This document shows positions 1,975 through 9,144 of a stretch of 9,144 bases of DNA, one piece after another (position 1 is the stretch's first letter; every line of letters begins with the position of its first letter). The notes under the pieces were generated by a model. That model had not been told where the DNA came from. It worked only from the letters and a program-made list of their open reading frames with translations, and ran no database searches. The translations under genes were made by a program, and so were the position numbers. The stretch lies in the NCBI GenBank assembly GCA_023259315.1, contig JAHFQL010000045.1, positions 1 through 9,144 of the forward strand, given 5' to 3'. The stretch is from Candidatus Woesearchaeota archaeon (lineage in GTDB: Archaea > Nanoarchaeota > Nanoarchaeia > Woesearchaeales > GW2011-AR4).

Positions 1975-3480
1975 TTACTGGCCGAACTTCAGGATTTTTA
2001 CGTCCCGTGTTTTAAGGTTCACAATTGGAACTCTGCTTGGCTCCGGGTTATGCCCAACTTTTTCCTGGAATATTGTCTTGCCCTGCCAGCAGCTGCCGCA
2101 GATTAATGTTGTGTTTCTGTAATTTGCTGTAACTGATTTATGGATATGCCCGCTCAGGAAAAAATCCGGTATTCTGTCTATGACTAAAGGGTCTCTTTTT
2201 GCGTCCGGAATGTAAAGCGTTGATGTGTGTGTTGGAGCGAGATGCCTTCTTTTCAACAAAAATTTCATTATCAGGTCTGCCCTGTCATAACCTCCCTGGT
2301 TTCTCAAAGAGTCAACCTGGGCTACAAAATAATCGAAGGAGTAGCCATGGTACATCATAACATCAAAGCCCGGAAAATTTTCTGAAGAGTGTATATTAAT
2401 CATCGAAGGGTTTGAAACCATAATTGCATTGTTTAATTCGTGCATTGGCTTTGCATAATCTTTTGACAAAATTGGCTGTGGCTCTGAAATTCTCATTGCA
2501 TCGTGGTTCCCGGGGCATATAATTAGAGGAATATGCTGGGGTATCTGCCTCAGCAGCCCTGCGCATTCTTTATACTGCTGGTAAATATCTTTGATGAGCA
2601 GCTCCTTGTCCTGCTCAGGGTAAATACCAACACCGTCAACCAAATCCCCAGCAATGAAAATATACTCTACATTTTTTGATATGTTCCTTTGCTGCTCATT
2701 TCCCATTTCGCCGTTTATCCACCTCAGGAATTTCTCAAAATCTTCCGGCAGGAATTTTGAAGAACCGACATGAAGGTCTGACAGGAACAGAGCATATTTC
2801 TCATCGTCAGACTTCTTCAATTCTTTGGTTGTGGGAACGTCTGGCCAGATTATATTATTTGCAAAAATCAATGTGTCAACGTTTACCCCGACAACACCTA
2901 TGACTTCGTCCAGAACAACATCCTTTGCCTCGTTATAAAGTGCCGGCTTGTTCTTGTTTACCAATACTCTCCTCCTACCAGTTGGGTCTTCAAGCACAAA
3001 TAGAATATTTCCGTTCTTGGTTGTTTGCTTATCACTAACAATCCCTATGATTACTGCAGGCTCTTTATCTTTCTTGTTCATAATTTTGCTGATAGAAACC
3101 GTGCTTTTAAGCTCCTGCCTCTGCTTTAAAATTTTTTCTATTGCCCTGTACCTGTTGTTAAAGTAATCAACAAAATCCTGAATGTCCCTTTTTTTTGATT
3201 CTTCTTTGTAAGAATAGACTATTTTGATATTGTTCTCTTTTATTTTTGGCTGCGGTAATTTGGCTTCTGTTTCCTGCTGTTGACCACCACCAATTAATTC
3301 CTTTAAATCTATGCTTGCAACTGCCAAGTCTTCTGTTTTATTTTTTTTTAATATCTCAAAAATTTTTGAGATTTGCCCCTCGTCTTCTATGTGGCTTAAT
3401 AATTCTGAGCTTAACAAAATTCCATTTTTTAGAAATATATCGATAATGTTTCTTTTTTTCCTGATTAGTTCCTGCTCCAT
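1975..3480 (-). CDS. polB: DNA polymerase D small subunit DP1 (3'-5' proofreading exonuclease)
   Basis: The 501-residue protein has the DP1 layout. A helical N-terminal domain (about 1-60) is followed by a short low-complexity linker (GGGQQQE, 64-70), an OB-fold region (about 125-215, containing VIIGIVSDKQ and LEDPTGRRRVLV), and a calcineurin-like phosphoesterase domain (about 228-500). All metal-binding phosphoesterase motifs are visible: DLH (235-237), GDLVDG (278-283), GNHD (324-327), YHG (377-379) and GHIH (444-447), so the Mre11-like 3'-5' exonuclease should be active. In eukaryotic B subunits these motifs have decayed. It is shorter than Pyrococcus DP1 (about 610), mainly through a shorter N-terminal part. 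It lies between cdc6 (10-nt gap) and DP2 (1-nt gap). ATG 3480 is chosen because AGGGAG lies 6 nt upstream. Confidence 0.96.
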   Translation of the reverse strand: MEQELIRKKRNIIDIFLKNGILLSSELLSHIEDEGQISKIFEILKKNKTEDLAVASIDLKELIGGGQQQETEAKLPQPKIKENNIKIVYSYKEESKKRDIQDFVDYFNNRYRAIEKILKQRQELKSTVSISKIMNKKDKEPAVIIGIVSDKQTTKNGNILFVLEDPTGRRRVLVNKNKPALYNEAKDVVLDEVIGVVGVNVDTLIFANNIIWPDVPTTKELKKSDDEKYALFLSDLHVGSSKFLPEDFEKFLRWINGEMGNEQQRNISKNVEYIFIAGDLVDGVGIYPEQDKELLIKDIYQQYKECAGLLRQIPQHIPLIICPGNHDAMRISEPQPILSKDYAKPMHELNNAIMVSNPSMINIHSSENFPGFDVMMYHGYSFDYFVAQVDSLRNQGGYDRADLIMKFLLKRRHLAPTHTSTLYIPDAKRDPLVIDRIPDFFLSGHIHKSVTANYRNTTLICGSCWQGKTIFQEKVGHNPEPSRVPIVNLKTRDVKILKFGQ

Positions 3481-3486
3481 TTTATA

Positions 3487-3492
3487 CTCCCT
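3487..3492 (-). promoter_or_regulatory. Shine-Dalgarno for DP1
   Basis: AGGGAG on the minus strand overlaps the TAG stop of cdc6 and stands 6 nt before the DP1 ATG. It is the clearest ribosome binding site on the replication side and fixes the DP1 start. It suggests that DP1 is translated by re-initiation from the cdc6 message. Confidence 0.7.
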
Positions 3493-4699
3493 AAATTCGG
3501 ATATTTTCTTCCAATATATTTTTAATTCTTGGCAGAATGTTTTCAGGTATTTCTATAGATATTTCCCTAGTTCTCCCATACCTCCCCTTGGAAATTACTT
3601 TTGCGTTAACTATCCCAAGCATGTCGAACTCAGATATTATGTCTGATATTCTCCTTTGGGTAAGGATACTTGTGTTTGTTTTGTTGCATAGGGATTTGTA
3701 AACTTCATAAACTTCGCCAGTGAATATGTTGTTGTTTCTTTTTGGGTTTACCAGAATTATTGCATAAAGTAGTATTTGATATTGTTTCGGTTGTGTTGTT
3801 ACTATGTCTATTATTCTGTCCTTGTCTATTTTTTCTTCTGCTTCGTCAATGTGGGATATGTTTATTTTCTTTGAGCTTTTTCTGTCAGCCACTTCACCGG
3901 CAACCCTTAATAGTTCCAAAGCCCTCCTGGCGTCCCCGTGGTCGCGGGCAGCGTATGCGGCGCATTTTTCCACCACGCCCTGCTCCACAGCGTCTTTGTT
4001 GAACGCGATTTCCGACCTTTGCTTGAGTATGGTTTGAATTTGAAATGCATTGTACGGCGGAAAAACAATTTCCTCCTCTGACAGGGAAGACCTGACTCTC
4101 GGGTCAAGATTATCAACAAACATAACATCATTAGATATCCCGATTATTGAAATTTGTGATTCGGGGTTTTCTTCATTTATTCTTGTTAAGTTGTATAGTG
4201 CGTTGTCCCCCGTTTTGCTAACGAGCTGGTCTATCTCATCCAAAACCAAGATGTAGTTTTGTTTTTGTTTGTTTAGTGCCCTGAAAAATATTTTATAAAC
4301 TTCTTCTGTCGGCAATCCTGTCGGTGGTATTGATTTACCAAGCTCGCGAGCAAGCTGGGCGATTAACCTGTACTCCGTGTCTGTACTCCGCTTTAGCTTG
4401 CAATTAATATATATAACTTTCAGAGGAATGTTTTCCCGCTCTGCTGCCTCAGTAAGCTTTTGGGTTGTGTGCTTAACTGTAAGTGTTTTGCCAGTGCCGG
4501 TTTTACCATAAATAAAGATATTAGACGGCTTGTCTTTTTTTAAAGCTGGGGCGAGTATATTAGCTATTTGTTTTGTTTGTTCTTCCCTGTGCAAGACGTT
4601 TTCGGGAATATATGTTGATTGAAGTACTTTTTTATCAAAAAAGACACTTTCCTTCCTCAGAAACACCTCAAAGAACGTTTCCAACCCACCATCTTCCAT
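3491..4699 (-). CDS. cdc6: Origin recognition / replication initiator Orc1/Cdc6
   Basis: The 402-residue AAA+ initiator binds origin recognition boxes and loads the MCM helicase. An N-terminal lead with the typical SVFFDKKVLQSTYIPENVLHREEQ-type sequence (about 18-41) precedes the ATPase core. The core shows Walker A GKTGTGKT (65-72), Walker B LVLDEID (151-157), sensor 1 around N190 (IGISND), the DPRVRSSL box (199-206; R201 and R203 are arginine-finger candidates) and sensor 2 GDARRALELL (255-264). The C-terminal 100 residues look like the winged-helix DNA-binding domain, with RRISDIISEFDMLGIV (349-364) as likely recognition helix and GRYGRTREI (372-380) as wing. Length is normal for the family. 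It is the first gene of the cdc6-DP1-DP2 operon and reads away from the adjacent origin-like sequence, the usual place for an Orc1 gene. Whether it is the only Orc1 of the organism cannot be seen here. Confidence 0.97.
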   Translation of the reverse strand: MEDGGLETFFEVFLRKESVFFDKKVLQSTYIPENVLHREEQTKQIANILAPALKKDKPSNIFIYGKTGTGKTLTVKHTTQKLTEAAERENIPLKVIYINCKLKRSTDTEYRLIAQLARELGKSIPPTGLPTEEVYKIFFRALNKQKQNYILVLDEIDQLVSKTGDNALYNLTRINEENPESQISIIGISNDVMFVDNLDPRVRSSLSEEEIVFPPYNAFQIQTILKQRSEIAFNKDAVEQGVVEKCAAYAARDHGDARRALELLRVAGEVADRKSSKKINISHIDEAEEKIDKDRIIDIVTTQPKQYQILLYAIILVNPKRNNNIFTGEVYEVYKSLCNKTNTSILTQRRISDIISEFDMLGIVNAKVISKGRYGRTREISIEIPENILPRIKNILEENIRI

Positions 4700-4702
4700 A
4701 AA

Positions 4703-4722
4703 TTTCCAAGAGAAACGGAGGT
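4703..4722 (+). promoter_or_regulatory. Degenerate ORB-like site in the cdc6 5' region
   Basis: TTTCCAAGAGAAACGGAGGT matches the right-hand ORB copy (4860-4879) at 14 of 20 positions. It has the TTTCCA...GAAAC core followed by purine/G-rich sequence, which is the general form of archaeal ORBs. It lies between the cdc6 TATA box and its ATG, so bound Orc1 could block its own transcription. It is weaker than the two main copies. Confidence 0.5.
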
Positions 4723-4729
4723 ATTTAAA
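4722..4729 (-). promoter_or_regulatory. TATA box of the cdc6-DP1-DP2 operon
   Basis: TTTAAATA on the minus strand is centred about 26 nt upstream of the cdc6 ATG, the normal archaeal TATA-to-start distance, so transcription should begin at or within a few bases of the ATG (leaderless). No Shine-Dalgarno precedes the ATG, which agrees. A second candidate, TTATAAAA (4737-4744, minus), is about 41 nt upstream and would give a leader of roughly 15 nt. Confidence 0.6.
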
Positions 4730-4750
4730 CGTTTGGTTTTATAATCCCAC

Positions 4751-4772
4751 CCCACCATTTCCTATGGAAATT
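4751..4772 (-). repeat. Left origin recognition box (ORB-like), minus orientation
   Basis: On the minus strand this reads AATTTCCATAGGAAA followed by TGGTGGG, and the G-rich run continues as GTGGGATT. The near-palindromic TTTCC/GGAAA core plus G-string is the form of Orc1-binding ORBs in Pyrococcus and Sulfolobus. The first 15 bases are identical to the right copy in the opposite orientation. Its G tail points away from the AT-rich element and abuts the cdc6 promoter region. Confidence 0.8.
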
Positions 4773-4857
4773 ACATTCCTTCTTTATATTTAGATTATAT
4801 ATATTATATTTCTATATAGAAAATATTTTAATAATAATACAAAAAAACAAAAAAAAC
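4773..4857. other. AT-rich duplex unwinding element
   Basis: These are 85 bases with 10 G or C. The left third is pyrimidine-rich (CTTCTTTATATTTAG), the centre is TA-step rich (ATTATATATATTATATT), and the right end carries two A-tracts of 7 and 8 broken by single C. It is bounded exactly by the inverted ORB copies, as expected of the site where Orc1 melts the duplex. Confidence 0.75.
4809..4822. repeat. 14-bp perfect palindrome at the centre of the origin
   Basis: TTTCTATATAGAAA equals its own reverse complement. Its centre (4815.5) is within half a base of the midpoint between the two ORB copies (4815). Its arms TTTC/GAAA resemble the ORB core arms, with TATATA in place of CATAG. With a one-base bulge at 4823 the arms extend by three more pairs. 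Confidence 0.7.
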
Positions 4858-4947
4858 AATTTCCATAGGAAACTATGGTGTTGGTGAACCCAACAAAACA
4901 AAACCCACAAAAACACGTCAAAATATATAAAAATTATTTTAATAATA
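4824..4947 (+). repeat. Pair of 13-nt AT direct repeats
   Basis: TATTTTAATAATA occurs at 4824-4836 inside the unwinding element and again at 4935-4947, 111 bp downstream in the same orientation and on the other side of the right ORB. Both copies lie in very AT-rich DNA, so chance is a real alternative. The second copy may mark a second easily melted patch. Confidence 0.4.
4858..4879 (+). repeat. Right origin recognition box (ORB-like), plus orientation
   Basis: AATTTCCATAGGAAA is followed by CTATGGT and then GTTGGTG, giving the same 15-base core as the left copy in inverted orientation and a looser G-rich tail pointing away from the AT-rich element. The core-plus-tail form and symmetric placement support an Orc1 binding site. 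Confidence 0.8.
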
Positions 4948-4974
4948 TTTTATGGGGTATGGAGTTAGAAAAAG

Positions 4975-4991
4975 AATCCTACCCACCATTT
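4975..4991 (-). repeat. ORB half-site (G-rich tail copy)
   Basis: The minus strand reads AAATGGTGGGTAGGATT. This matches the tail of the left ORB (AAATGGTGGGGTGGGATT) apart from one missing base and one substitution. The TTTCC arm is not conserved (TTGTCAAGTT upstream), so this is a partial or decayed box, about 100 bp to the right of the right ORB. Confidence 0.45.
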
Positions 4992-5020
4992 AACTTGACA
5001 AACCCCAACCGGAGTTAAAT
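4988..5020. promoter_or_regulatory. Inverted repeat next to the sugar-operon TATA box, possible operator
   Basis: ATTTAACT (4988-4995) and AGTTAAAT (5013-5020) form a perfect 8-bp inverted repeat with a 17-bp spacer. The right arm touches the TATA box and covers the position of the BRE, where a bound regulator would block TBP/TFB. No regulator gene is in the window, so a partner cannot be named. Confidence 0.35.
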
Positions 5021-5027
5021 TTATAAA
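5020..5027 (+). promoter_or_regulatory. TATA box of the sugar operon
   Basis: TTTATAAA is centred about 26 nt before ATG 5050, with purine-rich BRE-like sequence upstream (CGGAGTTAAA). The spacing predicts a leaderless transcript, consistent with no Shine-Dalgarno before the ATG. It diverges from the cdc6 promoter across the origin. Confidence 0.65.
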
Positions 5028-5049
5028 GTTTGGTTATGGACTTAGAAAT

Positions 5050-5934
5050 ATGCAAATTTTGGTAACTGGGGGTGCTGGTTTTATAGGAAGTCATCTTGTA
5101 GACCTTCTTTCCCAAGATGCCGGTAGCAGGATTACAATTCTGGACAATTTTTACAGGGGGAGTATTGACAATATAAAACACCATCTAAAAAATAAAAATA
5201 TAACCTTAGTGGATGGAGACATAAGGAATTTTAAAACATTCAAAAATATTGGAAAATTTGATGTTGTCTACCATCTTGCGGCACAGTCAAACGTCATCGG
5301 CTCTTTTCTAAATCCAGATTACGCTTTTTCTTCAAATATCGGCGGTACATACAATTTGCTGAAATTCCTCGGCGGGCAGAATGCAAGGTTGATTTTCTCT
5401 TCGTCAAGGGAAGTTTACGGAAATCCAAATCACATTCCTGTAGACGAAAACCACCCTTTGCAGCCAATAAATCTTTATGGAGCAACAAAAGTTGCCGGTG
5501 AAATGCTGTGCAGGACCAATAAAAATCTGCGCCTTACAATTTTGAGGATAAGCAACGTGTACGGTACAAGAGACCGAGAAAGGGTCATTCCAATTTTCCT
5601 CAACAACGCAATGAAGAACAAAGATTTGAATCTTTTTGGGGGCAAGCAGGTAATGGATTTTGTGTGGGTTGGTGATGTTGTTGGCGCAATGGTGGAAATA
5701 TCAAATAACAGCAATTACTCTGGGAAGACTATAAATATAGGGACGGGAATTGGAATTTCAATAGGAGAATTGGCAAAAAAAATAATTGTGCTTGCAAAAT
5801 CAAAATCAAAAATAGTAAAAAACCCCCAAAGACCCGTTGATGTTAAAAAATTTATATGCAAAAGCAATTTAATAAAATTAAAAACGACAAAACTTGATGA
5901 AGGATTAAAGAGGATGATTAAGGGATGGAACTGA
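5050..5934 (+). CDS. NAD-dependent sugar epimerase/dehydratase (extended SDR family)
   Basis: The 294-residue protein is an extended short-chain dehydrogenase acting on nucleotide sugars. It has the N-terminal Rossmann motif GGAGFIGSH (7-15), acidic D32 ending strand 2 (NAD rather than NADP preference), GDI (56-58), HLAAQ (75-79), the catalytic serine region SSS (117-119), the Tyr-Lys pair YGATK (Y143, K147) and RISNVYG (166-172). It resembles UDP-glucose/UDP-GalNAc 4-epimerases and related dehydratases most, but the substrate cannot be read from sequence. It is slightly short for the family (usually 305-340); the missing part is in the C-terminal substrate domain. ATG 5050 is chosen because the Rossmann strand begins directly after it and the TATA box is about 26 nt upstream. 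The last 10 bases overlap the next gene. Confidence 0.92.
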   Translation: MQILVTGGAGFIGSHLVDLLSQDAGSRITILDNFYRGSIDNIKHHLKNKNITLVDGDIRNFKTFKNIGKFDVVYHLAAQSNVIGSFLNPDYAFSSNIGGTYNLLKFLGGQNARLIFSSSREVYGNPNHIPVDENHPLQPINLYGATKVAGEMLCRTNKNLRLTILRISNVYGTRDRERVIPIFLNNAMKNKDLNLFGGKQVMDFVWVGDVVGAMVEISNNSNYSGKTINIGTGIGISIGELAKKIIVLAKSKSKIVKNPQRPVDVKKFICKSNLIKLKTTKLDEGLKRMIKGWN

Positions 5935-6587
5935 CTATCATAATACCTGCGTACAACGAAGAGGAATCCATAAAAGACACCATCAGGAGCATTAAAAAAT
6001 ATAACCCCAAATGCGGGATAATAGTTGTCGATGACAACAGCAAAGATAAAACAAAAGATATTGCTAAAAATGAAAATGTAAAAGTAATCTCGCACAAGTC
6101 AAACCAGGGTTATGGAGCAGCATTGAAAACCGGAATGCTTGAAGCAAAATCAAAATATGTTGGATTTCTTGATGCGGATATGACTTATAACCCCAAATAT
6201 TTTCCCAAGATGCTGGATTATATGAAAAATGATAAGCTTGACATAATCTGGGGGAGTAGGTTTGGCGGTAACAAAAACAAAATGTCATTAATAAGAAAAA
6301 TCGGAAACAGGTTCTTCGTATTGTTTTTTTTCCTAATAACCGGAAAGAATGTTGGAGATTGTGCTTCCGGCCAAAGAATACTAAAAACCAATATATTTAA
6401 CAAAATAGAATTAGATACACTTCCCGATGGCCTGGAATTTACCCCAGCTTTATCAAAACGGATAATAAGCCGCGGGCTCAGGTACAAAGCTGTTCCAATT
6501 AATTATGAAAACCGGAGGGGCAGCTCAAAATTAAGCTTGATTAAGCATGGTTACAGAATGCTCAAAAATATAATTCTGGAAAAATAG
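5925..6587 (+). CDS. Family-2 glycosyltransferase, dolichyl-phosphate sugar synthase-like
   Basis: This 220-residue GT-A fold enzyme likely moves a sugar from a nucleotide donor to a polyprenyl/dolichyl phosphate on the cytoplasmic membrane face. Visible motifs are IIIPAYNEEE (5-14), VVDDNSKD (34-41), the metal-binding D-A-D (83-85), GSRF (110-113), a CASGQRILK segment (146-154) and RRGSSKL (197-203). The phenylalanine-rich stretch FFVLFFFLITG (130-140) is too short for a confident membrane helix, and there is no C-terminal transmembrane pair, so it is probably a peripheral, soluble-type enzyme. It starts inside the epimerase gene (10-nt overlap), so the two are translationally coupled. AAGGG sits one base before the ATG, and GAGG lies about 10 nt before it. 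Donor and acceptor are unknown; DPM1-type mannose or glucose transfer is the nearest analogy. Confidence 0.9.
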   Translation: MELTIIIPAYNEEESIKDTIRSIKKYNPKCGIIVVDDNSKDKTKDIAKNENVKVISHKSNQGYGAALKTGMLEAKSKYVGFLDADMTYNPKYFPKMLDYMKNDKLDIIWGSRFGGNKNKMSLIRKIGNRFFVLFFFLITGKNVGDCASGQRILKTNIFNKIELDTLPDGLEFTPALSKRIISRGLRYKAVPINYENRRGSSKLSLIKHGYRMLKNIILEK

Positions 6588-6590
6588 AAA

Positions 6591-6594
6591 GAGG
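6591..6594 (+). promoter_or_regulatory. Ribosome binding site of the second glycosyltransferase
   Basis: GAGG with a 4-nt spacer (ATTT) lies before ATG 6599, in the 11-nt gap after the previous stop. It supports this start codon over later in-frame ones. Confidence 0.55.
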
Positions 6595-6598
6595 ATTT

Positions 6599-7315
6599 AT
6601 GCCAAAAAAATATGAATTATCAATTATAATCCCAACTTACAATGAGAGAGAAATAATACAAGATTCTATAAACAGGATATTTGTAAATTTAAAAAGAGCT
6701 AAAGTTGATGATTCAGAGATTGTTGTCGTTGACGACAGCAGGGACGGCACTGAAAAAATATTAAATAATCTTTCAAAAATTCATGAAAATCTTAAAATAA
6801 TCCACAGGACTAAATCAAAAGGAGTCGGCTCCGCGATAAGGGAAGGAATCAAAAAAGCTTCCGGAAAATTCGGAATAGTTTTCATGTCAGACGCCCCAGA
6901 TGATATAAAATATATTCCTTCAATTCTGAAAAAACTCAATGAGGGATATGATTTTGTAAACACATCAAGATTTATGAAAGGTTCAAAAATAGAGGGCTAC
7001 CCATTCATCAAGACTTTTGCAAACAGGCTGGCAAATTATTCTGTAAGGATTGCTTTCATGAGGCTAGACTTGAAGGATTTCACAAGTCTGTTCAAGGGAT
7101 TCAGGCTAGCCAAAATAAAAGAACTGAATCTTGAAGCCAACGAATTTGACATAGGACTTGAGACTGTATTGAAGGCTATAAGGAAAAATTACAGGATAAT
7201 TGAAGTGCCTGTAAACTGGAAGGAGCGCGAAGCCGGAAAAAGCAAGCTTGTGCTCTCCAAACAAGCCCCCCAATACGCAAAAAGAATTTTAAAATTATTT
7301 TTCCTTTACCGGTAA
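6599..7315 (+). CDS. Second family-2 glycosyltransferase
   Basis: The 238-residue protein has the DPM1-like GT2 layout: IIIPTYNERE (9-18), VVVDDS (42-47), GVGSAIREGI (75-84), an acidic metal site written SDAPDD (97-102) where a D-x-D is usual, TSRF (122-125), the DFTSLFKGFR block (160-169) and EAGKSKL (211-217). It is a diverged paralogue of the preceding enzyme rather than a copy, so the two probably use different sugars or acceptors in one pathway. No transmembrane segment is evident; the C-terminus is basic and hydrophobic (AKRILKLFFLYR) and may touch the membrane. Its stop is one base before the methyltransferase ATG (TAAGATG), the same junction as DP1-DP2. The exact substrate is unknown. 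Confidence 0.9.
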   Translation: MPKKYELSIIIPTYNEREIIQDSINRIFVNLKRAKVDDSEIVVVDDSRDGTEKILNNLSKIHENLKIIHRTKSKGVGSAIREGIKKASGKFGIVFMSDAPDDIKYIPSILKKLNEGYDFVNTSRFMKGSKIEGYPFIKTFANRLANYSVRIAFMRLDLKDFTSLFKGFRLAKIKELNLEANEFDIGLETVLKAIRKNYRIIEVPVNWKEREAGKSKLVLSKQAPQYAKRILKLFFLYR

Positions 7316-7316
7316 G

Positions 7317-8546
7317 ATGAAATCCAAAAAATGCCGCATCTGCAGCAATCAGAATCTGAAAAAATTTCTTTCGCTAGGAACAACTCCATTGGCCAACAGC
7401 TTTCTTACAAAAGAGCAGCTAAAGGAAAAAGAAAAAAAATTTCCGCTTGAATTGTGCTTCTGCGGCAAATGCAAGTTTGTGCAGCTGACTTATATTGTCC
7501 CGTCTGAAGACATGTTCAGCAACTATGTTTACCTCAGTTCAACTACAAGAACTTTCCAGCTGCATTTTGCAAGAATGGCAGAAGAAATAACAAGAGATTT
7601 CAAGCTGGATAAAAATTCCCTTGCTGTTGACATTGGCTCCAACGACGGCATTTTATTGAAAGAATTTAAAAAATTTGGAGTGAAGGTTATTGGAGTAGAG
7701 CCTGCAGCAAATGTGGCAAAGATTGCAGAGCAGGCCGGCATAGAAACCATAAACGGATTCTTCAGCAAAAAAGTTGTAATGGAAATAATAAAAAGAAAAG
7801 GAAAAGCGGATGTAGTAACGGCCACAAATGTTTTTGCACATATCGATGATATCGACAGCGTAATAAAAAATGTTAAAGGTTTATTGAAAAGGGACGGGAC
7901 TTATGTAATAGAAATACAATATTTTGTTGATACCCTTGAGCAAATGACTTTTGACAATATCTATCATGAGCATATGTCATATTATACTTTGACTTCGCTG
8001 GATTTTTTTTTCAAAAAGCACGGAATGGAAATAATAAAAGTAAAAAAAGTCCCGACACATGGAGGGTCATTGAGAGTTTTTGTCCAGAGAAAAGAAGGCA
8101 ACAATAAAATTGACGGCTCTGTAAAACAGATATTGGAATATGAAAAAAAGTTTGGAGTTGATGATTTCGACACATATAAGAAATTTGCAGACAACGTCTA
8201 TAATATCAAAAATCGGTTGGTGGATTACATCAGGAAAATCAAAAAGGAAAACAAGAAAATTGCAGCTTACGGCGCACCTGCAAAAGGAAACACCCTTCTT
8301 AATTTTTGCGGCATCGGAAAAAATGAAATTGAATACATTGTCGAAGACAATCAATTAAAGCAGGGGATGTATTCACCAGGCACACACATACCGGTTGTGC
8401 ATCCAAAAGCACTCGATATAAAAAAGCCAGACTATATTTTGATTTTAGCTTGGAATTTTGCAGATGAAATTCTTGAAAAAACTAAGAAATACGGAGATAA
8501 AGGCGTAAAATTTATAGTACCTTTGCCGGAGCCAAGGATTGTTTAA
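7317..8546 (+). CDS. SAM-dependent sugar C-methyltransferase (TylC3/NovU/TcaB9 type)
   Basis: The 409-residue protein has the three-part layout of nucleotide-sugar C-methyltransferases. An N-terminal zinc-binding domain has cysteines C6, C9, C49 and C52 (CRIC...CGKC; C47 is extra). A class I methyltransferase domain follows with SAM motif VDIGSNDG (104-111), acidic GVEPA (126-130) and FAHIDD (173-178). The conserved IYHEHMSYY (215-223) contains the Tyr/Glu/His proposed as catalytic in TcaB9. The C-terminal Rossmann-like domain shows AAYGAPAKGNTLLNF (316-330) and ends in VPLPEP. The family methylates C3 of 4-keto-deoxysugars carried on dTDP, producing branched sugars. Length is typical. It closes the sugar operon, and its substrate could come from an SDR dehydratase such as the operon's first gene. 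A relative acting on another nucleotide sugar is possible. Confidence 0.9.
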   Translation: MKSKKCRICSNQNLKKFLSLGTTPLANSFLTKEQLKEKEKKFPLELCFCGKCKFVQLTYIVPSEDMFSNYVYLSSTTRTFQLHFARMAEEITRDFKLDKNSLAVDIGSNDGILLKEFKKFGVKVIGVEPAANVAKIAEQAGIETINGFFSKKVVMEIIKRKGKADVVTATNVFAHIDDIDSVIKNVKGLLKRDGTYVIEIQYFVDTLEQMTFDNIYHEHMSYYTLTSLDFFFKKHGMEIIKVKKVPTHGGSLRVFVQRKEGNNKIDGSVKQILEYEKKFGVDDFDTYKKFADNVYNIKNRLVDYIRKIKKENKKIAAYGAPAKGNTLLNFCGIGKNEIEYIVEDNQLKQGMYSPGTHIPVVHPKALDIKKPDYILILAWNFADEILEKTKKYGDKGVKFIVPLPEPRIV

Positions 8547-8568
8547 AAATATATTAAAAAATTTAAAA
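8545..8568 (-). terminator. T-tract terminator for the minus-strand epimerase gene
   Basis: Read on the minus strand just after the stop, this holds TTTT, TTTTTT and TTTTT runs separated by A-rich bases, with no stem-loop. Archaeal terminators are often such T-runs. It occupies the 28-nt gap between convergent genes; the plus strand has no comparable T-run here, so the methyltransferase message may read into the opposing gene. Confidence 0.4.
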
Positions 8569-8574
8569 CTGATT

Positions 8575-9144
8575 TTACATACGATTCTTAACTTCTGCCA
8601 CAAGCTCAGATTTAATTGAGTATTCCTCGGCTGCCCACCTTATGAACCTTTTAAGGCCAGTTCTCAGGTCAACTTTGGCCTCGTAATTCAAAAGCGATTT
8701 TATTTTTGTCAGGTCAGGGCATCTTCTCTTTGGGTCGGACTTGCCGTAAGCATCATTCAATCCGGGAGATTTATGAACCTGCACTTTATTGCCGAAAATA
8801 TCTGCTATTAAATTCGCAAGCCCAAGCATTCCAATCTCTTCTTTTTCATTTCCTACGTTAAAGCTCTCTTTGTTGTGCTCGGATAATAAAACTTTGAAGA
8901 ACCCTATCATTGCATCTGTTATGTAGCAGAATGTTCTTGTTTGGCTGCCATCGCCATAAACTGGAAGCGGATTCCCCTTAAATGCATTGGTTACAAAATT
9001 CGGTATAACCCTGTAATCATCTTCCCTCATTCCGGGCCCATAAACATTGAATGGTCTGACCATTTTTACAGGAACGTTGTGGATTTCATTGTAAGCAACA
9101 CACAAAGTTTCCCCCAATCTTTTTGACTCATCATAATTTGACCT
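8575..9144 (-). CDS. NAD-dependent epimerase/dehydratase, UDP-glucuronate decarboxylase-like (5' end beyond the window)
   Basis: The C-terminal 189 residues of an extended SDR sugar enzyme are present; the Rossmann glycine motif and about 120-140 residues lie past the right edge. The visible part opens with the catalytic YDESK (Tyr-x-x-x-Lys) followed by RLGETLC, then RPFNVYGPGMR, VYGDGSQTRTFCYITDA and a C-terminal DPKRRCPDLTKIKSLL. The YDESKR and DPKRRCPD signatures match UDP-glucuronate decarboxylases (UXS, making UDP-xylose) and close epimerases. A TTG at 9117 could pass as a start, but the frame stays open to the edge and the active-site tyrosine lies upstream of it, so it is not the start. 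It converges on the methyltransferase (28-nt gap) and belongs to a separate transcript, probably another part of a glycan locus. UXS activity is inference. Confidence 0.9.
   Translation of the reverse strand, partial: RSNYDESKRLGETLCVAYNEIHNVPVKMVRPFNVYGPGMREDDYRVIPNFVTNAFKGNPLPVYGDGSQTRTFCYITDAMIGFFKVLLSEHNKESFNVGNEKEEIGMLGLANLIADIFGNKVQVHKSPGLNDAYGKSDPKRRCPDLTKIKSLLNYEAKVDLRTGLKRFIRWAAEEYSIKSELVAEVKNRM

Follow-up and report, generated by a model that had tools for sequence, protein, structure and literature searches.

A putative oriC1-type replication origin with a central palindrome upstream of cdc6 in a woesearchaeon

Where does chromosome replication begin in DPANN archaea, and how is the starting site built? 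These organisms make up a large share of archaeal diversity and few of them are in culture, and we found no description of their replication start in the open-licence literature searched. Queries joining the origin recognition box (ORB) with DPANN or Nanoarchaeota returned no paper; those joining Woesearchaeota with replication origin or oriC returned only a paper on G-quadruplexes, and those on woesearchaeal winged-helix transcription factors only a bioinformatics survey, to judge from the accessible portions of these two sources. The question is raised in concrete form by a stretch of 9,144 nucleotides (hereafter the window) that its sequence identifies as woesearchaeal: the named relatives among the matches listed are Woesearchaeota, Nanoarchaeia or Nanoarchaeota. 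We argue below that positions 4700-4886 of the window are probably a chromosomal replication origin with a build like that of Sulfolobus oriC1 (probability roughly 0.85), a reading that is firmest for the close clade of relatives around the window. The site thereby offers an origin architecture for Woesearchaeota.

An origin-like layout next to cdc6

The GC content of the window is 37.7%, that of the 350-bp intergenic region 4700-5049 is 27%, and that of an AT-rich block inside this region is 11.8%. To the left lie the genes for the initiator Orc1/Cdc6 (3491-4699), the DNA polymerase II small subunit DP1 (1975-3480) and the large subunit DP2 (3-1973, partial, running past the window edge), all on the minus strand and thus leftward; the right-hand genes point rightward, beginning with a divergent NAD-dependent epimerase/dehydratase gene (5050-5934, plus strand, Pfam) that forms the right border of the intergenic region. 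A preliminary description of this DNA had placed cdc6-DP1-DP2 next to the element, and profile matches agree: Pfam Cdc6_C and Cdc6_lid and NCBIfam PRK00411.1-3 above cut-off for the initiator, Pfam and NCBIfam profiles for DP1, and Pfam for the partial DP2. The right flank (5050-9144) holds a sugar-nucleotide/glycosyltransferase/C-methyltransferase cluster. Among solved structures the initiator is best matched by 2qby_A, Cdc6 homolog 1 (E 1.1e-106), which we take to be a Sulfolobus protein; judged by this best match, the adjoining gene appears to code for an initiator of the Orc1-1 (Cdc6-1) type.

The window contains just two exact copies of the 15-mer AATTTCCATAGGAAA, one at 4758-4772 on the minus strand and one at 4858-4872 on the plus strand. 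The preliminary description had reported an identical, oppositely oriented pair bracketing 85 bp of about 12% GC, with G-rich tails pointing outward, and on both points it was accurate: the enclosed block (4773-4857, 11.8% GC) is a putative duplex-unwinding element, and TGGTGGGGTGGG follows the minus-strand copy and CTATGGTGTTGGTG the plus-strand copy. With its tail directed toward cdc6, the left copy forms ORB-B (4746-4772, minus strand), whose profile score of 34.8 is the highest among the three ORBs of the window; the right copy with its outward tail forms ORB-C (4858-4886, plus strand, score 29.0). Two elements are new to the present analysis. The first is ORB-A (AATTTCCAAGAGAAACGGAGGTATT, 4701-4725, plus strand), which faces ORB-B and lies between the TATA-like box of cdc6 and the start codon, its tail being overlapped by that box (TTTAAATA, 4722-4729, minus strand); the ORB-A alignment of relatives gives the TATA-like consensus AGGTATtTAAA. 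The second is a perfect 14-bp palindrome, TTTCTATATAGAAA (4809-4822), whose centre at 4815.5 is half a base from that of the AT-rich block at 4815. With up to three mismatches the 15-mer matches the window four times against 1.29 expected, and 7 of 200 shuffles reach four; weak matches therefore say little alone, and the weight lies on the two exact facing copies and on their conservation. The locus thus has an AT-rich unwinding block flanked by inverted ORBs, and ORB cores followed downstream by a G-rich stretch, as in an Orc1/Cdc6-dependent origin of the oriC1 type.

Which letters of the ORB matter was assessed by counting 56 ORBs, including two that had been mispicked (ORB-A of L001 and ORB-C of L016); the profile was built from the remaining 54. 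TCCA...GAA hardly varies (each letter is kept in 54 to 56 of the 56), the next base is A (45) or G (11), and a GG beyond the variable stretch is present in 51 and 52 ORBs. In the three-base centre the middle position is A in 41 of 56, and the other two are free. Relatives whose initiators are 77-83% identical carry the centres CACAG, CATAC, CACAC, CATAA and CACTG. The centre CATAG had been put forward as the mark of a lineage-specific ORB variant read by this Orc1; it is one of several centres among relatives. With a variable centre between fixed flanks, recognition by the initiator probably depends on those flanks and on the G-tail, and the idea of a special centre is rejected. The published ORB of Sulfodiicoccus acidiphilus, whose complement is TCCAGTGGAAACAGAGGGGT, has the same frame, with TCCAnnnGGAAAC and a downstream G run where the present consensus is roughly TTCCAnnnGAAAynnnGGgGT; in contrast to that archaeal ORB, as given in the accessible part of its source (PMC6647314), the three-base centre here is variable and has no fixed lineage-specific form.

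Conservation of the layout in relatives

A scan of GTDB genomes yielded 63 loci coding for a relative of the initiator, with titles mostly naming Woesearchaeota. The 18 nearest loci, from 17 genomes, are referred to as the close clade; their cdc6 upstream DNA was aligned with the window (L004 has only 94 bp of it), and genome-wide tests were run in relatives' genomes. The alignment, a check that the preliminary description had itself suggested, shows that the inverted ORB layout is conserved. Toward cdc6 the common order is ORB-C with its tail pointing away, the AT-rich block with the palindrome, ORB-B with its tail toward cdc6, and ORB-A facing ORB-B. The core starts of ORB-A and ORB-B are exactly 55 bp apart in 19 of 19 close upstream regions (the window and the 18 loci), with orientation kept, and the distance from ORB-B to ORB-C differs by tens of bases.

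Of the 64 upstream regions (the 63 loci and the window), 48 have an AT-rich block enclosed by the outward-tailed inverted pair, or 45 under a stricter cut, against 0.0 expected from shuffles (20 per region) and none in 63 stretches of the same length taken 1.5 kb past the cdc6 start. The enclosed block, 55 to 391 bp long, is kept across distant lineages. Thirteen regions also contain an inward pair, as expected where ORB-B and ORB-A are at least 60 bp apart. Sixteen regions have no pair: thirteen reach the contig end 67 to 403 bp upstream and L027 does so at 627 bp, the gene of L059 is truncated, and L022, with 700 bp upstream, has ORB-B and ORB-A without ORB-C. Distant ORBs score lower (down to 8.9, in L018) because the profile was trained on the close clade. 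On larger sequences the best profile matches cluster at cdc6: the top three on a 288-kb contig, and three of the top four both on a 311-kb contig and on a 919-kb chromosome. On the 829-kb chromosome of the relative AR20 the top two matches are at cdc6, with scores of 17.8 and 16.3, little above the next at 15.1.

Three further observations concern these loci. Contigs end within 750 bp upstream of cdc6, in or near the origin, in 19 of 63 cases and within 750 bp downstream in none, which shows a tendency of assemblies to break there. About 100 bp beyond ORB-C there is a second AT-rich imperfect inverted repeat (TTTATTATTATATAGTAATAAA-like), kept in many close relatives and degenerate in the window; tRNA and Rfam scans of selected loci gave no RNA match between the origin and the upstream gene, this repeat included. 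The genome bin G003 has two different cdc6 loci, L003 and L017, each with the palindrome, which points to a paralogue or a mixed bin.

The central palindrome and a candidate binding protein

With at most one mismatch, the palindrome lies inside the block in all 18 close origins (the window and 17 loci), and in each of them none of 200 dinucleotide shuffles does as well. Farther out (30 origins), it is present with at most one mismatch in 10 and with at most two in 15; the other 15 blocks have no copy within two mismatches, and for most of them some or most shuffles match as well. Its position is near-central in the 18 close origins, at a mean of 0.12 of the half-length, and the centre bias is weak in the 15 farther origins (p 0.008, or 0.066 without three near-copies). 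When up to 700 bp upstream of cdc6 were scanned without regard to the block, 29 of 64 regions gave the pattern and none of 63 control stretches did. A scored ORB pair is present in 25 of these 29 regions, and each time the match falls inside it, at 120 to 537 nt from the start of cdc6. A sequence-specific element midway in the unwinding block, one feature of the ucm/UBP type of origin, is thus present.

The palindrome also recurs elsewhere in these genomes. Seventeen close genomes hold 42 exact copies against one of the reversed word, and among 147 relatives the exact palindrome is found in 54 and the reversed word in 6. When the half-site was rearranged in 42 ways on two contigs, the true arrangement came first: it has 10 sites, 9 of them intergenic, where the others average 0.88 and 0.27 respectively. 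We fetched 90 sites: 30 exact non-cdc6 copies from 17 genomes, 42 one-mismatch non-cdc6 copies from six of those, and 18 exact copies from eight farther genomes, these last taken from among the matches listed and including at least two (L266 and L271) that are again cdc6 upstream regions. All but seven of the 90 (83) lie outside ORFs of at least 100 aa.

The most regular target is gyrA: 11 genomes have a site (exact or with one mismatch) at 80 to 96 nt upstream of its start. Among five gyrA promoters examined, an adjacent second copy is present in four and a TATA-like box follows in all five. This group had begun as a cluster of 13, from which L076 and L080 were dropped because they begin unlike GyrA; five of the remaining 11 were assigned by a letter test, and six, which read VRDGLKPV for ARDGLKPV, were assigned to GyrA by N-terminal sequence, L095 being a 79-aa piece. 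The GyrA of L066 (genome G011) matches an intein splicing domain; L076 and L080, short ORFs with the palindrome upstream, stood in the BLAST cluster of this GyrA and, judged by eye, may relate to the endonuclease part of an intein. Genes near sites also include scpB, a DHH-family gene and ftsZ, the last in one genome only and 288 nt away. A reading of the targets as a cell-cycle regulon was dropped as too narrow, since by eye they also include an Lhr-like helicase, CTP synthase, an SRP54-like GTPase, and Fic-like and membrane proteins.

What might bind the palindrome? Downstream of six copies lies a gene for a protein of 107 aa, which is found in 128 of the 147 relatives, with a single match in all but one (G032, two). 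The protein has no Pfam or NCBIfam family, no PadR profile match and no sequence relative in the PDB. Its AlphaFold model (mean pLDDT 87.1) is a winged helix with a C-terminal helix, and the best Foldseek neighbours are the PadR regulators 9qbd and 6abt (E 3.9e-4 and 8.6e-4, TM about 0.5), so that by this comparison the predicted fold is a winged helix of the PadR type. A conserved N-terminal GRP presumably resembles the core of an AT-hook. At the best 30 of the 128 loci the palindrome stands 27 to 46 nt before the start of this gene, mostly beside a TATA-like box, with 0 to 3 mismatches (at most two in 26); for the weakest, up to 15 of 200 shuffles are as good. The position next to the TATA-like box suggests that the protein represses its own gene.

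In 28 of 30 genomes outside the close clade, the protein and an origin palindrome (a core with at most one mismatch, lying in the block) are either both present or both absent: 18 have both and 10 neither; of the other two, one has the protein alone and one the palindrome alone. The Fisher p of 4e-6 overstates this association because there are very few independent changes on the tree; the agreement is largely due to one clade without both, and an independent-contrast test, with one or two changes on supported branches, was not significant. An origin site without a detected protein occurs at the close loci L009, L011 and L013 and at L031, and the protein without an origin site at L052. AR20 has no palindrome within one mismatch anywhere in its genome and no significant match to the winged-helix protein. 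The gene stands beside the origin, about 1 kb or less upstream of cdc6, in L049 (4828-5097) and L060 (601-906). Letters of the origin site and of the winged-helix promoter are of shared types in some farther genomes (L018-L021, L060); within the close clade no such covariation was found. We propose the PadR-like 107-aa protein as the best candidate binder of the origin palindrome, by analogy with UBP on the ucm element of Sulfolobus.

An alternative is that another regulator binds the palindrome, the winged-helix gene being no more than a target. The exact palindrome is carried by 48 of the 128 relatives that have the protein and by 6 of the 19 that gave no match, which shows no association at that level, and among 28 further winged-helix loci with upstream DNA a site within one core mismatch was found in only 14. 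Three of the six genomes with a palindrome and no protein match (G009, G011, G013, G039, G067 and G088) sit in a clade that otherwise has the gene, so that for G009, G011 and G013 missing sequence in the metagenome-assembled genomes is likely. This point, the site beside a TATA-like box in the best 30 of 128 loci, the adjacency of gene and origin in L049 and L060, and the agreement of protein and origin site in 28 of 30 genomes, which reflects very few independent changes, lead us to regard another binder as unlikely, though a real contender.

The palindrome might also serve the promoter of cdc6 or that of the divergent gene from a distance, without a part in origin firing. It does stand before other ORFs, 81 of the 90 fetched sites having the start of an ORF of at least 60 aa within 330 nt. 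Against this, the unrestricted scan placed it between the ORB pair wherever a pair was scored and never in controls, and it is near-central in the close clade, with the weaker bias noted farther out. We consider a pure promoter role improbable. In Sulfolobus, ucm mutants lose origin activity at a normal level of Orc1 protein, as stated in the accessible part of PMC12141716.

The preferred reading, in which the palindrome serves the origin, can be carried one step further, tentatively and at slightly short of even odds: Woesearchaeales may have a dedicated, widely conserved and nearly always single-copy PadR-like origin-centre protein that represses itself, binds the palindrome, and acts also at gyrA (mostly through tandem sites) and at further promoters, so that the opening of the origin is linked to supercoiling and expression.

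Strand composition and comparison with known origins

Is cdc6 also the point at which the strands change composition? The plain cumulative GC skew that the preliminary description had proposed as a check was computed in relatives, and its extremes lie away from cdc6; raw GC and purine skews likewise have their extremes elsewhere in these relatives. We then used the A-T skew at fourfold-degenerate (synonymous) sites with gene-strand effects removed, a measure picked after viewing the binned skews of three sequences (G001:C1, G007:C9 and G019). The corrected cumulative minimum is at 238.9 kb in G001:C1, 0.6 kb from cdc6 at 239.5 kb, and at 273.4 kb in G007:C9, about 1.6 kb from cdc6 at 274.9 kb. 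On the 919-kb chromosome of G019, cdc6 (637 kb) coincides with one of two minima of nearly equal depth; the second is at 209 kb. In each of these three sequences, none of 2000 gene-order shuffles reached the observed A-T skew range.

The second minimum of G019 is a matter of its own. This sequence (G019:C1, the genome of CP070803; L170-L215) has two near-equal A-T minima and two maxima, as for two origins. The 209-kb minimum is flanked by elongation-factor and ribosomal-protein genes; no ORB-like site accompanies it, and there is a 100-base N gap nearby. It may stem from an inversion, a misassembly or a codon-bias effect.

AR20 is the fairer test, because the measure was picked after the binned view of the other three sequences. 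An A-T step at least as large as that at cdc6 occurs there at 12 of 790 grid positions with 20-kb flanks, 1 of 770 with 30-kb flanks and 3 of 750 with 40-kb flanks. The corrected A-T cumulative minimum is at 708 kb, away from cdc6, with a range reached by 283 of 2000 shuffles, and the corrected G-C walk has its peak 4.6 kb from cdc6 (at 231 kb), likewise short of significance (347 of 2000 shuffles as large). Four relatives thus show a strand-composition switch at cdc6, weak in one (AR20), and it takes gene-strand correction to reveal it. Within the window, A-T skew on the plus strand comes to -0.01, -0.14 and -0.02 in three left genes and +0.12, +0.12, +0.14, +0.18 and +0.04 in five right genes, all from small counts. 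Together with the conservation upstream of cdc6, the strand-corrected skew in relatives supports the origin proposed in the preliminary description.

These results bear on the view that the ORB-like repeats are mere operators by which cdc6, with or without the divergent gene, is autoregulated, replication starting elsewhere. ORB-A does overlap the cdc6 promoter, and the haloarchaeal Orc1-2 is a regulator that is not an initiator, according to the accessible part of PMC9738581. The skew switch at cdc6 in relatives, the inverted pair with its AT-rich block of variable length kept across distant lineages, and an initiator whose best solved match is Cdc6 homolog 1 all speak against operators alone, which we consider very unlikely. 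Chance, by which AT-rich spacer DNA (the block is 88% AT) would throw up short palindromes by accident, as the 15 farther origins without a copy might suggest, has next to no probability and is already refuted for the close clade by the shuffles in each of the 18 origins, the first rank of the true half-site and the excess of 42 copies over one reversed word.

How would such an origin work? Orc1/Cdc6 from the adjoining gene would bind the facing ORB-B and ORB-C across the AT-rich block and direct MCM onto it, with forks leaving both ways. At ORB-A, Orc1 would shut down cdc6, giving simple negative feedback on the initiator; such autorepression is expected because ORB-A lies between the TATA-like box and the start codon at its fixed distance from ORB-B. 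The palindrome may be the site of a second, dimeric DNA-binding protein, also active at other promoters, and a dimer there could keep the duplex closed until firing, position MCM or aid its release. An origin/MCM action of this kind is the role proposed for UBP in Sulfolobus, as far as the accessible part of PMC12141716 describes it. The parallel would be a functional one, and the described binding modes differ.

The arrangement suggests that a sequence-specific element in the middle of an unwinding block is not peculiar to Sulfolobus and its kin, the candidate binder here being one small protein of no known family. If the reading of a dedicated origin-centre protein is true, mechanisms of the UBP-ucm kind would have evolved independently a second time, in a lineage whose origin is described in none of the papers searched.

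Comparison with known systems places the locus nearest to Sulfolobus oriC1 (Orc1-1, ORB2-DUE-ORB3), which likewise has three ORBs at its initiator gene, with an inverted pair enclosing an AT-rich block (PMC12141716, accessible part). Its ucm is, by the same partial account, also a short sequence-specific element in mid-block that occurs at many genome sites and is enriched between genes; compared by description, ucm differs in being 11 bp long and bound by a UBP monomer through beta-hairpins (PMC12141716), whereas here a 14-bp perfect palindrome is paired with a candidate binder of PadR-like winged-helix fold. The haloarchaeal oriC1 shares ORBs with G-rich ends around an AT-rich block beside cdc6; in contrast to the present origin, it is reported to have a G-rich inverted repeat inside each ORB, and the accessible part of its description mentions no such central palindrome (PMC4010727). 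The 107-aa protein resembles the PadR family in its predicted winged helix with a C-terminal helix and differs from it in matching no PadR profile or PDB sequence. Finally, the archaeal cell-division regulators CdrS and aCcr1 are, like the candidate, small DNA-binding regulators linked to division genes; unlike it, they are ribbon-helix-helix proteins, and the accessible part of PMC7617429 does not describe them as bound at origins.
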